Below, piece by piece: positions 53,989 to 58,606 of a stretch of DNA of 64,000 nt (positions are counted from its first letter, which is position 1; each line of letters opens with the position of its first letter). Source of the DNA: Pelagibacterium sp. GTDB lineage: Bacteria; Pseudomonadota; Alphaproteobacteria; Rhizobiales; Devosiaceae. The notes below the pieces were generated by a model. The model did no database searches. It was not told where the DNA came from and saw nothing but the letters and a program-made list of their open reading frames with translations. The position numbers and the translations under genes are program-made. The stretch covers positions 1 through 64,000 of the forward strand of contig PBNW01000018.1 of assembly GCA_002723255.1 (NCBI GenBank), written 5' to 3'.

Positions 53989-54613
53989 TATCGGTAAATC
54001 CGGCCTCTTTGAGCATCGCTTCTTCCTCCTCGGGGGCGAGGATGGTGAGGTTTGTGGCGATGGCGGTGCGGGCGGCCTGGTTTTGTGGATCGCCGCCGCC
54101 GAAGGCGATGTGGCGGGCGATCGATTGGCTGCGCTCGGGCTCGGTCTGGGCAAAGCTGATATGGGCGAGGACAAAGGGCGCGCCGGGGGCAAGGCGGCGG
54201 CGGATGTGGCGGAGCGTTTCGAGCCGGTGTTCGCGCGCGATGAAATGGAACGTCAAAAGGCACACCGCGCCATCGAAGGGGCCATCGGGGGCGTCCGCGA
54301 TATATCCGTGATGGAGGCGGATGCGGGCGGCGTGGGGGCCGATGGTCTCTTTGGCCGCCGCGAGCATATCGGCTGAGGGATCGACGCCGTCAAAAGTCCA
54401 GCCGGGATGTTTTTCGGCCAGCGATTTGAGCTCGAGTCCGCCACCGGCCCCAAGCACCAGGATTTTCCCATTCCCCCGCACGCGCTCGGCCAGAAGCTGG
54501 GACGTCATGGCGTGCAGACCATCGAATCCGGGCACCTTGCGCGGCGTACCGGCGGCATAAGTGCTGGCGTGGCCGGCGCCGAAAGCGGAGGCTGTGGGGT
54601 TGGGGGTTTTCAT
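53936..54613 (-). CDS. Class I SAM-dependent methyltransferase
   Basis: 225 residues. KILVLGAGGGLELKSLAEKHPG is motif I, FDGVDPSADMLAAAKE motif II, FDGAVCLLTFHFI motif IV and LAPGAPFVLAHISF motif VI. Typical small-molecule methyltransferase fold; substrate unknown. Its start is 142 bases from a strong palindrome at 54755-54780. Confidence 0.85.
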   Translation of the reverse strand: MKTPNPTASAFGAGHASTYAAGTPRKVPGFDGLHAMTSQLLAERVRGNGKILVLGAGGGLELKSLAEKHPGWTFDGVDPSADMLAAAKETIGPHAARIRLHHGYIADAPDGPFDGAVCLLTFHFIAREHRLETLRHIRRRLAPGAPFVLAHISFAQTEPERSQSIARHIAFGGGDPQNQAARTAIATNLTILAPEEEEAMLKEAGFTDITLFYAGLSFRGWVCYA

Positions 54614-54754
54614 GTAACTTTATGTGTGGCGGTTTGGTGGGGGTGTCAAAGTGGGCAGGCGATTCCGACATGACCAGCGGCTTGGCGTGAACTTGCGACC
54701 CCATTTCGGTCGTTACAACGTTCATCCCCGTTGCCTGAAAGCAGACGAACTGTT

Positions 54755-54780
54755 GCGCCAACCTATTGACAGGTTGGCGC
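54755..54780. promoter_or_regulatory. Perfect 26-bp palindrome, candidate operator
   Basis: GCGCCAACCT-ATTGAC-AGGTTGGCGC. The loop and right arm contain TTGACA, so a dimeric repressor bound here could cover a -35 box. No gene follows on the plus strand for 2.5 kb. Confidence 0.5.
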
Positions 54781-55031
54781 GTCGATCTAGACCATGCGAC
54801 GTGTGATCATCGCGCCCAAAGCCACCGCCTGTTCATACGTTCTTTGATCCGTTTTAGTCCCTCTGGGGCCAGCGCTTGCGTCTTTCCTTCTCGCGGTTCT
54901 TTTATCGCTACGCTCGGAGCGAATGATTGCACTTATGAATTAGTAACCGTCTACCGCTTTACGCCCAATTTGCCGAGAGACGATATCGGAACCAGTTGAC
55001 ACGGGAATATTTCTGCTATTTACGTACGTTC

Positions 55032-55117
55032 AGGCGAAGCGGGCTTAACGTCCCAGCGTGAAGTGGGCCTATCTCTGATAAGAGCCCTTTCCGAGAGTAC
55101 GCTGGTACGGGACGCCT
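55032..55117 (+). ncRNA. Possible structured RNA (unnamed)
   Basis: CGTCCCAGCG (55049-55058) pairs with CGCTGG...GACG (55100-55114) with one bulge; AGG at 55032 can pair with CCT at 55115, and the enclosed part has GGG...CTCT-GATA-AGAG-CCC. A weak promoter lies just upstream. No family recognised. Confidence 0.25.
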
Positions 55118-55220
55118 TTACTGTAGTTCTTGTTTCGAATGGTACCAAAGATTCAAGGATGAAAGCGCACAGAAGCCACGCTTCTGATATCGCCATTTAA
55201 ACGCTCTCATATGAATGCCC

Positions 55221-55255
55221 AGAAGGCCTCTCTGCGAAAACGCGGGAGGCCTTCT
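55221..55255 (-). terminator. Hairpin at the end of the minus-strand cassette
   Basis: AGAAGGCCTC and GAGGCCTTCT form a perfect 10-bp stem with an inner GCG-TTTT-CGC, starting eight bases beyond the last stop. Weak T tract, but position and stability fit a terminator. Confidence 0.65.
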
Positions 55256-55262
55256 ATCATTC

Positions 55263-56174
55263 CTACCTGATGCAATCGTCCACTAGCATGTTGATGCGCT
55301 CGCTCTTGGGCTGGAATTGGCCTCGTTGGCGGCATGTGATCGTTACGTCTGAAAGCTTCTTCCCGTTGCCTTCTCTGGTGAGATCGAAATGAAAGTCGTC
55401 AGCATAGGGACAGCCCAGCCGATAGAACCTAGTCAATGCTATGGCGGGGTCAGAATATGCATCTGAACTACCATGCCTGCCGCCTGACGCCTCCGCAGGC
55501 TGAAAACGTAAGCCCTTCGGCGAAATGTAAGCATTACGGGAGCGTGAGAAGTTCGTGCGCTTAAACTGGGTAACGTCGCCTTTATTGAACTCAGTGGCGG
55601 CGTTTCTGAGAAGGTCCATCAGCGGCCGCGCATTGTAGTTGATAGGCGGCAGAAAAAGCGGGGACCGATACGAGCTCATTGTCTCACGCAAAATTCCAAG
55701 AGAAAGCCGTGCATCTTCAATCTTCGCAAGAATTTCTGCGACCGTTTTATTCCTATTGTTATAGGTGGATATCGATAGTCCCATAGCCAGTGCGGAGTGG
55801 TGAAAGCGATTCAGAAGATCACTGACACACTGACCATTTTGGTGGATTAGTATTAGAAAATCAGGCTTGGTTAAGGTGCACGAGTGGCCGTTGGTTTTGC
55901 GACAGCTCACCCCCTTTCCATGAGCTAAACCGCACCCACGGGAAGCGTTCTGGCAAAAACCATTGGGCCGTTTAGTCGTACCAAATACGGCATCTAACGC
56001 CGCGTTCAGAGCATCATCAACATCCGATCGGCGGTAAAGCATGCCCTTGGATGATCTAAGACGAGCACCGGTGCCTCTAAATACGTAATTATCAGGATAT
56101 CGCTTCCTGAGATCTGCAAGCACTCCATTTACGATTGTTCCTGGAATGCCAGCCAATACGATCGCGTACCGCAT
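55263..56174 (-). CDS. Unknown protein with Cys cluster (cassette gene 3)
   Basis: 303 residues; no family recognised, no signal peptide or membrane segment. A Cys cluster (C74-x6-C81-x9-C91-x7-C99, His/Lys/Gly-rich around it) may bind zinc. Residues ~100-175 look helical; the C-terminal part contains LGCPYADDFHFDL and a final beta-like stretch (SDVTITCRQRG). AAGG lies six bases upstream and the gene starts 11 bases after the LOTUS-like gene, so the two form an operon. G+C is lower than in neighbours by eye. A nucleic-acid-related or defence role is only a guess. Confidence 0.8.
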   Translation of the reverse strand: MRYAIVLAGIPGTIVNGVLADLRKRYPDNYVFRGTGARLRSSKGMLYRRSDVDDALNAALDAVFGTTKRPNGFCQNASRGCGLAHGKGVSCRKTNGHSCTLTKPDFLILIHQNGQCVSDLLNRFHHSALAMGLSISTYNNRNKTVAEILAKIEDARLSLGILRETMSSYRSPLFLPPINYNARPLMDLLRNAATEFNKGDVTQFKRTNFSRSRNAYISPKGLRFQPAEASGGRHGSSDAYSDPAIALTRFYRLGCPYADDFHFDLTREGNGKKLSDVTITCRQRGQFQPKSERINMLVDDCIR

Positions 56175-56184
56175 CTACCACCTT

Positions 56185-56874
56185 CTACGACAAAAGGCGC
56201 CCTAGTAGGTCGAGCGGTAACGAATATCCGTGTCGCTCGTTCGCTGGTATCTCGTCTATGAGATTCCGCAGAGCTCTGATGCCGGAACTATCTTTGCCGG
56301 AAGGGGCCCCCGCCTTTCGGCTACCGGCCTCGCTGCGCGCAAAATCGATCGGCTTTAGTCCATTCTCGATACACCACTGGTTGATCGAATTCGATATCTC
56401 TTCATCTCGAATATTTTTGGGGAGATGCGAGTCGGGAACAAATGCAGGCTCAATCTCAATTCCCTTCGAGGTTTCCTGCTGCTCGCCTTGAACATCTACG
56501 AAGTTATAAGGGCTATCCGTTTGTATGAACCGTCTGAAGCCTTCACGAATGGGTTTGGAGAAGGCTGTCCAAAACACTTTATCGAACCGAATAGCTTGTG
56601 GCTTGGACAGTTCAATGCTGTTGAGCCCGACCGCTAGAGTTGCTCCGCTTCCCGTAAAGGTAACCTGCTCCGCGAGGTGCTCTCGGATGATCTCGCTGAG
56701 ACGCTTTCCCTCTGTTATCTCCTTGACCGGTTCACCCAGCTTGCGAGCTAGCTTCCCGCCAATTTGAGAGAGATAAATTGGCGCGCCGTCAGCTTCACGT
56801 AGAATCTCCACAATAGCATCGGTGAGCGACGAAGAATCCCACACCGGTGAGTCCCCTTTCTTCTTTCCAGCCAT
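56185..56874 (-). CDS. OST-HTH/LOTUS-like domain protein (cassette gene 2)
   Basis: 229 residues. Residues ~14-85 read like an OST-HTH/LOTUS winged helix: LTDAIVEILREADGAPIYLS, QIGGKLARKL and KRLSEIIREHL, with a final beta pair (QVTFTGSGATLAVGL). LOTUS domains bind RNA, often G-rich or structured. The rest (residues ~95-229) is unassigned; a segment near IRALRNLIDEIPANER may be helical. GGGGGAAG precedes the ATG. First large gene of the minus-strand cassette. Confidence 0.75.
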   Translation of the reverse strand: MAGKKKGDSPVWDSSSLTDAIVEILREADGAPIYLSQIGGKLARKLGEPVKEITEGKRLSEIIREHLAEQVTFTGSGATLAVGLNSIELSKPQAIRFDKVFWTAFSKPIREGFRRFIQTDSPYNFVDVQGEQQETSKGIEIEPAFVPDSHLPKNIRDEEISNSINQWCIENGLKPIDFARSEAGSRKAGAPSGKDSSGIRALRNLIDEIPANERHGYSLPLDLLGRLLS

Positions 56875-56979
56875 TTACTTCCCCCAAATGCTCACTTCAG
56901 CATCCTGCCGTTTGACTAACGCACATAGGCGAGCCAAGCCCGAAGTGAGCATACAACGACCATTCTTCATATTGCTCAT
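56875..56979 (-). CDS. Possible 34-aa ORF abutting the LOTUS-like gene
   Basis: ATG 56979 to TAA 56875, with the stop directly adjoining the next ATG (TAAATG). The product begins MSNMKNGRCMLTSGLARL and is basic with two Cys. An 11-bp inverted repeat lies within it. The Shine-Dalgarno is weak. It could be a leader peptide or a real small gene. Confidence 0.35.
   Translation of the reverse strand: MSNMKNGRCMLTSGLARLCALVKRQDAEVSIWGK
56888..56952. repeat. Inverted repeat at the head of the cassette
   Basis: ATGCTCACTTC (56888-56898) and GAAGTGAGCAT (56942-56952) are perfect 11-bp inverted copies 43 bases apart. In mRNA they would form a stem ending beside the ribosome binding site of the LOTUS-like gene. 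Confidence 0.6.
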
Positions 56980-57346
56980 GACATTTCAGCGCCGCCAGTT
57001 CAAGCCGTAAACCCGGCCATGCATAGTCGGACTTAAATTGACACGCGCAGTAGTTGCGGGCTGGGAGCTCACGAGTATTGAGCGAACGACGAGAGATCGG
57101 GCTTGTCGAAGGGCAGCGACCACTTGAATGGCCGCTTTTCCAACTCCGCCGCCGTTCCGCTGGTCACCTGATATTGGCGCGACCGGGTACTGGTTCCGGA
57201 CTCGGGGCCAGGATCACGATCGGGAAGCGCTGCTCCCACCCCCACAGTTGCCACGGCCGGGCGGATAGGCTAGATCGGCGCCCCTTTTTGTTTTTGCCTC
57301 GGCGGCGCGGGTTTGCGGGCGGGGGTGGTTTGGGTCGGGTTTTCTC
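56980..57346. other. Gap between the cassette and the Hsp70-like gene
   Basis: About 370 bases. The cassette promoter should be here, but no clear -35/-10 pair is visible. Composition returns to high G+C at about 57110. A minus-strand frame (57069-57254) could be a gene remnant but matches nothing I know. Confidence 0.4.
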
Positions 57347-58606
57347 ATGGCATCGCTTTATTGTGGGGTCGATTTCGGCACCACCAATTCCACCATCGGG
57401 GTCGTTGGGCCCGATGGCGCGCCGGTGTTGATCCCGGTTGAAGGGGACGCGGTGACGTTGCCTTCGGCGCTGTTTTTCAGTTTCGAGGATCAGAGCACCC
57501 ATTTCGGGCGGTCGGCGGTGCATGAATATATGGACGGGGCCGAGGGGCGGTTCATGCGGGCGCTCAAATCGGTGCTGGGGACGGCCCTGATGGAGGAGAC
57601 GACCCAGATCGGGCGCGAGCGGATCGGGTTTGAGGGGTTGATCGGGCGGTTTTTGAGCCATTTGCGCGACAGGCTGACCGCGCACACCGGGGCGATGCCC
57701 GAGCATGTGGTTTTGGGGCGGCCGGTTTATTTCGTCGACGGGGACCAAGGCGCCGACAGGACGGCGCAAAACCAGCTGGAAGCGGCGGCGCGCAGCGTTG
57801 GATTTTCCCATGTCGAATTTCAGTTCGAGCCGGTGGCGGCGGCGCTGCATTTCGAGCGCACGCTGGAGGCCGAAGCGCTGGCGCTGGTTGTCGATATCGG
57901 GGGCGGCACATCGGACTTTTCGGTGCTGAAACTATCGCCGCAACGCCGGGCCAGCACCGACCGGCGCGAAGACATCTTGAGCACGACGGGCGTGCATGTG
58001 GGCGGGACCGATTTCGACCGGCAGCTCAACATTTTCAAGGTGATGCCCGAAATGGGGCTGGGCACCTTAACGCGCGATGGCAAGCGGGAGATGCCGCGCT
58101 GGTATTTTCACGATATGGCGACCTGGCACAGGATCAACCAGCTCTATCGCCCCGAAATCTTGCGCGACATGCGCGAATTGCAGCGCGAGGCGGCCGAACC
58201 GGACAAGCTCGAGCGGTTTCGGCACCTTCTCGCCCACCGCTCGGGACACCGGCTGGCCGGGCAGGTGGAGGCGGCAAAGATCGCTTTGACCGATACGCCG
58301 ATGGTCGCCATCACGCTCGAAGAGCCGGGGCTGTCGCTGGCCATTCCCACAACGCGGGCCGAGTTCGAGGCGGCGAGCGCGGGGCTGACCGGCAAGATCG
58401 GGGCGGCGCTCGACGATGCGCTGGCTGCAGCGGGGGTGAGCGCTTCGGCGATCGAAACGGTGATCCTGACCGGGGGCGGCGCGCAGGTGCGGCAGGTGCG
58501 GGCGCTGGTCGATGCGCGCTTTGCCCATGCGCGGATCGCCCAATCGGACCGGTTCGGGGCCGTGGGGCTGGGGCTGGCGGTGGACGCGGCGCGGCGGTTT
58601 GCGTGA
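57347..58606 (+). CDS. Hsp70-family ATPase (YegD-like)
   Basis: 419 residues: phosphate-1 motif CGVDFGTTNSTIGVV, phosphate-2 VVDIGGGTSDFSVLKL, adenosine motif VILTGGGAQVRQVRAL. Length and lack of a substrate-binding domain fit YegD-type Hsp70 relatives rather than DnaK. Client unknown. Confidence 0.9.
   Translation: MASLYCGVDFGTTNSTIGVVGPDGAPVLIPVEGDAVTLPSALFFSFEDQSTHFGRSAVHEYMDGAEGRFMRALKSVLGTALMEETTQIGRERIGFEGLIGRFLSHLRDRLTAHTGAMPEHVVLGRPVYFVDGDQGADRTAQNQLEAAARSVGFSHVEFQFEPVAAALHFERTLEAEALALVVDIGGGTSDFSVLKLSPQRRASTDRREDILSTTGVHVGGTDFDRQLNIFKVMPEMGLGTLTRDGKREMPRWYFHDMATWHRINQLYRPEILRDMRELQREAAEPDKLERFRHLLAHRSGHRLAGQVEAAKIALTDTPMVAITLEEPGLSLAIPTTRAEFEAASAGLTGKIGAALDDALAAAGVSASAIETVILTGGGAQVRQVRALVDARFAHARIAQSDRFGAVGLGLAVDAARRFA

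Follow-up and report, generated by a model that had tools for sequence, protein, structure and literature searches.

A mobile gene pair of a LOTUS-like winged-helix protein and a putative effector from Pelagibacterium sp., flanked in many relatives by a predicted structured RNA

Introduction

Type III toxin-antitoxin systems, retrons and DRT systems are small mobile modules in which a protein effector is accompanied by a dedicated structured RNA. The gene pair described here resembles them as a small mobile module with an effector and a structured RNA, but no reverse transcriptase or repeat-array RNA was seen on reading, and the sequence comparison with these systems was made through Rfam only. 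The OST-HTH/LOTUS domain (PF12872) of Oskar, TDRD7, Tejas and MARF1 is likewise a winged helix. One protein of the pair gives a weak Pfam hint of this domain in its winged-helix region, but it stays below the Pfam cut-off, and its sequence likeness to five LOTUS domains is not significant.

According to PMC2848206, OST-HTH domains are predicted to bind RNA, and nearly every bacterial LOTUS protein carries a DUF88 LK-nuclease in the same chain; here, in contrast, the partner is separate and unrelated. Other LOTUS domains are cited as binding G-quadruplex RNA in PMC12247748. PMC8195603 reports fusions of OST-HTH to S1 domains in predicted conflict systems, an architecture that differs from that of our pair. 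PD-Lambda-2, a small toxin-antitoxin-like operon according to PMC9519451, adjoins the pair in one relative and resembles it in this organization, but the pair proteins have no PADLOC match. Gabija shares a plasmid block with the pair, but its genes are separate, lie past an IS110 and are not matched by the pair in PADLOC.

The gene pair and its insertion slot

The window is the whole stretch of 64,000 nucleotides that was analysed. Both open reading frames of the pair are real and lie on the minus strand with a gap of 10 bp, in agreement with the compact two-gene cassette proposed by an earlier sequence-only reading. The features of the locus are as follows:

56185-56874, minus strand: gene of the LOTUS-like protein, 229 aa; open reading frame with intact homologues in 10 further lineages
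56185-56874, minus strand: layout of that protein, with an N-terminal winged helix, a middle FWxAF-type region and a C-terminal 'SLPLDLL' tail
55263-56174, minus strand: gene of the partner protein, 303 aa, putative effector; open reading frame, alignment A10 of 13 sequences
55866-55958, minus strand: Cys-rich insert of the partner, in the window copy only (alignment A10)
56875-56979, minus strand: 34-codon open reading frame adjoining the start of the LOTUS-like gene; probably no conserved component
55220-55256, minus strand: hairpin after the partner gene, without a T run (folding against shuffles)
54785-55215, no strand assigned: non-coding stretch where nine relatives have a structured RNA; none detectable here
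54712-57246, no strand assigned: low-G+C insert of 2.5 kb at a variable slot (blastn against four same-genus genomes)

The visibly lower G+C that had been reported for the cassette was confirmed as a foreign composition, with 0.512 for 55263-56979 vs 0.604 for the whole window. The minimum of the 64 kb, in windows of 1,717 bp, starts at about 54901 (0.503). The end hairpin also stands as a strong fold past the partner stop (-24.9 kcal/mol, z -4.21, none of 200 shuffles as good), and hairpins were read at the same place in L006, L008 and L009. It was nevertheless rejected as a canonical terminator, having no T run and being absent from the terminator scan list. The 34-codon frame, which had been counted as part of the cassette, was dropped as a third component. 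It has no Pfam match, and a search for relatives in the DNA preceding 10 homologous pairs yielded nothing convincing, its two matches covering 4 residues (E 0.44) and 14 residues (E 7.1); judged by these searches, the frame is not conserved across homologous pairs.

The same-genus set held 13 genomes including the window's own, and four were compared at the insert site. The slot flanks aligned at 85-97% in these four, and 54712-57246 was unaligned except for a 35-bp match in G849. Genes read as methyltransferase-like and Hsp70-like border the slot, no phage genes were read around it in the window, and its content differs in the four genomes. In G009 and G011 it holds only about 340 bp. In G849, of the same species, one slot gene was read as chemotaxis-receptor-like and another, of 300 aa, as GIY-YIG-like; in G008 the slot contains a 213-aa gene and an AAA_13 ATPase that matches PDC-S06 (2.2e-137). 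The slot gene at L053:4787-5689 encodes 300 aa, was read as GIY-YIG-like at its start, and has no Pfam or PADLOC match.

The LOTUS-like protein

No Pfam, NCBIfam, PADLOC or PHROG family was reached by either window protein, and profile searches and structure prediction assigned neither to a described family, as the sequence-only reading had anticipated for the partner. The sole Pfam hint for the LOTUS-like protein was OST-HTH (12.3 bits, E 0.15), against a gathering score of 23.8 bits. In alignment A4, one of the six LOTUS-like members had any Pfam match; none of four further homologues matched OST-HTH, and the L012 protein gave SWIRM (E 0.026) elsewhere in its sequence.

Residues 1-82 of the L009 homologue were modelled as a winged helix, and the VIA-align rows shown for this model were mostly winged helices. 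The top row was Tejas (8wxs, Z 8.1, rmsd 2.4, 69 aligned), followed by TDRD7 (2lh9, Z 8.0, rmsd 2.9, 72 aligned). Near-ties were Egalitarian-BicD chains (Z 7.4-7.7), p45C (Z 7.2), and Scc1 and the Oskar LOTUS domain (both Z 7.0); the Marf1 LOTUS domain reached Z 6.0. Foldseek gave no match to the model at E <= 0.001. The hhalign comparison with five bacterial LOTUS domains from relatives was in register over 66 columns and not significant (probability 0.7%, score 13.8). The controls were a score of 11.3 for MarR, with the mistranslated row L076 left out, and a probability of 98.1% for LOTUS against LOTUS. On this model the L009 homologue has a winged-helix fold, for which LOTUS structures lead the list and other winged helices nearly tie. 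The fold model supports the OST-HTH/LOTUS-like domain first called from the letters alone, as a winged helix possibly of LOTUS type.

The plasmid version of the protein has 135 aa and consists of the winged helix and the tail only. Classical OST-HTH domains were found in five of 41 relatives' genomes (G009, G011, G012, G017 and G134) and not in the window's own genome.

The partner protein

PHROG gave single-member matches only (E 0.037-0.066). With PADLOC-DB 2.0.0, no family matched at E up to 1 for both proteins of the window, L009 and L019 and for the L021 partner. In PDB sequence searches the best E values were 0.8, 0.16 and 0.072, and a fourth search had no match.

The N-terminal domain of the L009 homologue was modelled as Rossmann-like. 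When residues 1-140 are divided into 14 blocks of ten, all but one block have a mean pLDDT of at least 88. Block means are 29-66 from residue 191 onwards, and the C-terminal fold is unreliable. Foldseek gave no match at E <= 0.001 in PDB or in BFVD. The best VIA-align row was 4yv7 (Z 6.0, rmsd 3.4, 125 aligned), followed by lumazine synthases (Z 5.9-5.1) and a designed Rossmann fold (Z 5.2); in this model the front domain is generic Rossmann-like. Argonaute chains appear among the rows (7swq in Foldseek; 6xu0 in VIA-align, Z 4.6), tied with unrelated ones. An NYN identity was rejected: no Pfam match to an NYN/DUF88 nuclease was found in the window proteins or in the homologues scanned, all of them other than the L023/L024 proteins.

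Fourteen columns of A10, the window included, are invariant: M1, G10, L152, P153, N156, F214, H222, R244, G246, H254, D256, C271, N284 and D289. The C-terminal domain holds the invariant H, R, G, H, D, C, N and D. These residues suggest a putative active or metal site of an enzyme-like domain. The four Cys of the cluster described earlier are present in the window partner (residues 74, 81, 91 and 99), but they lie within an insert missing from the other 12 A10 sequences, and the cluster was rejected as a zinc site of the family.

Pairing, distribution and divergence

The partner gene was found in 15 lineages: the window, L005/L060, L006, L007, L008, L009, L010, L012, L014, L015, L019, L021, G516, G498 and G898. 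The 14 further lineages come from Alphaproteobacteria and a second class of proteobacteria, from plasmids (enterobacterial, and one of 'Synechocystis') and from phage contigs. In 14 of the 14 checkable lineages the partner is immediately preceded, on the same strand, by the LOTUS-like gene or a part of it (the G898 contig ends inside the partner and was left out). The LOTUS-like gene is intact in 11 of them, split in L008, interrupted in L021, and only its C-terminal part is in frame in G498. The gap between the genes ranges from -4 to 23 bp. The recurrent pairing in unrelated genomes that had been named as support was therefore observed, in two lineages beside typed defence genes.

The pairing appeared from both sides. 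In a scan of GTDB contigs seeded with the LOTUS-like protein, each of the five loci had a partner gene next to it on the downstream side, and one of these loci was broken. Searches seeded with the partner led to upstream LOTUS-like genes in new phage contigs, plasmids and genomes. Partner identity to L009 across homologous pairs is 19-70%, and loci that are more alike in one family are also more alike in the other (correlation of pairwise identities, r 0.94, none of 2000 permutations as high, 11 pairs). For both genes, pN was 0.175-0.373 and pS 0.81-0.93 in four comparisons among L006, L009, L012 and L014; dN/dS was withheld because dS was saturated. The range of identities among homologous pairs and pN below pS in the relatives indicate that the pair is more than a chance arrangement.

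The pair is rare. Searches with the window's own proteins found the partner in one of 201 genomes (the own genome) and the LOTUS-like protein in two, the second of which held a homologous pair overlooked by BLAST with the partner. Profile searches, counting the own genome, were positive in 2 of 397 genomes of the order, 3 of 398 of the phylum and 2 of 385 of the class; around G516, they were positive in 2 of 4 and 2 of 48 genomes. GTDB contigs gave five loci, and the phage-contig collection five and then six, with five common to both searches. Scanning phage contigs for an exact motif returned six matches, namely four known loci plus L092 and L093, which fall inside a terminase-subunit gene (by reading). 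Some viral, plasmid and phage scans were empty. Seventeen plasmids carry the pair (12 Klebsiella, 3 Enterobacter, 1 Escherichia and 1 recorded as Synechocystis); both positives among 5,426 complete E. coli genomes are on plasmids.

A structured element downstream of the partner

The DNA past the partner stop is 67-84% identical between lineages, in contrast to the 700 bp upstream, where no similarity reached E 0.01; this difference drew attention to the downstream RNA. A conserved structured RNA beside many relatives is absent from the sequence-only reading. Its core of about 172 nt starts about 90-150 nt past the partner stop in L006, L007, L008, L009, L010, L012, L015, L060 and G898, so that the pair is accompanied by it in 9 of 14 lineages; the L014 contig ends at the partner stop.

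On the pair's strand, RNAalifold of eight sequences gave 43 pairs, 25 of them compensated, which none of 500 shuffles reached; slid structures had 2-5 pairs. The further pair types alone were not above shuffles on this strand (404 of 500). On the opposite strand, with L010 added, there were 51 pairs, 23 compensated, again reached by none of 500 shuffles and with 4-10 pairs in slid structures; 93.9% of cells were paired, a percentage that leans to the structure because the structure was derived from the same sequences. The fold energy was -45.8 on the opposite strand (nine sequences) vs -33.7 on the pair's strand (eight sequences). Outside one helix, the mispaired cells on the pair's strand were C-A 18 times and G-U twice, and such C-A mispairs become wobble pairs on the opposite strand. 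We predict that the RNA is probably read from the strand opposite to the pair.

The RNA model R1, built from eight lineages, recovered the copy of the ninth, L010, where it was expected (52.2 bits, E 7.5e-13). Rfam 15 had no match at E up to 1 in L009 9500-10100 and window 54600-57400, and no tRNA was found within the element at seven loci. Model searches did not find the RNA beside the pair in the window, L019, L021, G516 and G498, which means that it is either not universal or diverged in these five of the 14 lineages. The best nearby scores in the window were 6.8 bits (R1) and 5.2 bits (R2), and its 431-nt downstream stretch folds no better than shuffles (z -0.57 and 0.13). An R1 match in L021 (13.9 bits, E 0.055), more than 1 kb upstream of the pair, was not repeated by R2 and was taken as chance. 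An order-wide search was negative in all 284 genomes, a count that shows nothing alone as the draw held no known positive. A different non-coding element, unlike the main RNA, is shared by G516 and G498 (L058 and L059) downstream of the partner, with 67% identity along 128 nt (E 6e-12).

Genomic context

Among 72,556 plasmids, 16 carry the pair, IS110 and GajA/GajB in one block. In one of these, CP025213, both genes are disrupted, the LOTUS-like one by a cut and the partner by a frameshift. Gabija and IS110 also occur together on plasmids without the pair, which indicates that the Gabija linkage represents one plasmid lineage. L010 has an integrase-like gene upstream (by reading) and, downstream (L010:9823-12263), matches to PD-Lambda-2 B and C (6e-70 and 2e-31) with no HigB-like ORF or A component evident; a GmrSD-type gene is also near the pair. 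G488 has an ImmA/HTH regulator upstream and two unmatched genes downstream. Phage-like genes were read around several copies. PADLOC was run on selected neighbours (2 + 10), from four homologous loci and the slot in two sister genomes, without a random-locus control; of the 10, five had no match and one of the five matches was only a regulator. Defence-gene linkage was seen in the L019 plasmid lineage, in L010 and in the sister-genome slot, all among chosen neighbours without a control.

Proposed function

We predict that the pair is a mobile conflict module, most likely for phage defence, which travels as cargo of temperate phages, plasmids and variable slots; our belief and our doubt in this reading are about equal. 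The common form would have three parts: the structured RNA, the LOTUS-like protein and the two-domain effector. The LOTUS-like protein may bind the module's own RNA, and the ribonucleoprotein would keep the partner inactive or aim it. Infection could alter the RNA or its binding, and the C-terminal enzyme of the partner would then be freed. The basis of this reading is the gene order and adjacency, the parallel divergence, the mobility, the winged-helix model, the conserved polar residues, the covarying RNA fold in nine lineages and some defence neighbours. Counting against it are the lack of any PADLOC model match, the absence of the RNA in five of 14 lineages and a window copy short of near-invariant motifs.

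More specifically, and only tentatively, we suggest a new RNA-based immune system, in which the LOTUS-like protein and an RNA without Rfam match would form a ribonucleoprotein controlling an effector of an undescribed enzyme family, with the window copy as an RNA-less or RNA-diverged branch. If true, the LOTUS domains of germline transposon control would be tied to prokaryotic antiviral ribonucleoproteins, and the bacterial conflict systems would gain a LOTUS-type subunit and one family each of RNA and effector. The module is small enough for work in E. coli K-12.

By the comparisons above, the window copy has diverged from its relatives and has no RNA that can be recognised, so the RNA step may not hold for it. 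It may even be a decaying or repurposed remnant, which we think somewhat unlikely. The window partner is 25% identical to L009, with only the L023/L024 type lower in A10; HVNIAPND is replaced by RINMLVDD, several near-invariant motifs are lost, the Cys insert is unique, no RNA was detected, and L008, L021 and CP025213 are visibly broken relatives. Both window frames are nevertheless intact, and the partner keeps all 14 invariant A10 columns, although its own sequence is among the 13 from which these columns were defined.

We also consider it unlikely that the pair is a toxin-antitoxin module for element upkeep, with the partner as toxin, the LOTUS-like protein, the RNA or both as antitoxin (type II-like or type III-like), and incidental defence neighbours. 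The regulator-first order, abutting genes, compatible spacing, mobile carriage, minimal 135-aa version on plasmids and RNA adjoining the operon are all consistent with it, as is the rarity (2/397, 3/398 and 2/385 genomes including the own); but type II toxins are usually smaller than a two-domain protein of about 300 aa.

It is improbable, in our judgement, that the downstream element is folded DNA at which the carriers attach or recombine, or a regulatory element acting in both directions, instead of a module RNA. Although it lies at the edge of mobile cargo and was not found in five of 14 lineages, it keeps the same place amid contexts that share few neighbours (four cross-locus matches for 191 neighbour ORFs of 14 loci, one between frames overlying the element). 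The wobble pairs and the better fold on the opposite strand argue for an RNA, and G-T in DNA would give a similar wobble trend, which leaves room for folded DNA. A phage or plasmid control pair for replication or lysogeny, as six contigs from the phage-contig collection and the phage-like genes around several copies could suggest, is very improbable, given the copies on plasmids and in a window slot where no phage genes were read and the absence of partner matches in 50,697 GenBank phage records (a search with the partner only).

Returning to the conflict module, both enterobacterial homologues are annotated 'hypothetical'; their accessions were not mentioned in the literature searched, and no such pairing was named among the literature matches listed. 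Near the pair, L009:4117-5532 encodes a ParB N-terminal domain fused to an N6/N4 DNA methylase. L021 is CP101710.1, recorded as a plasmid of Synechocystis B12; the fetched stretch has a G+C of 0.61, and this host label may be doubtful. It also carries a multiubiquitin/ThiF gene pair.
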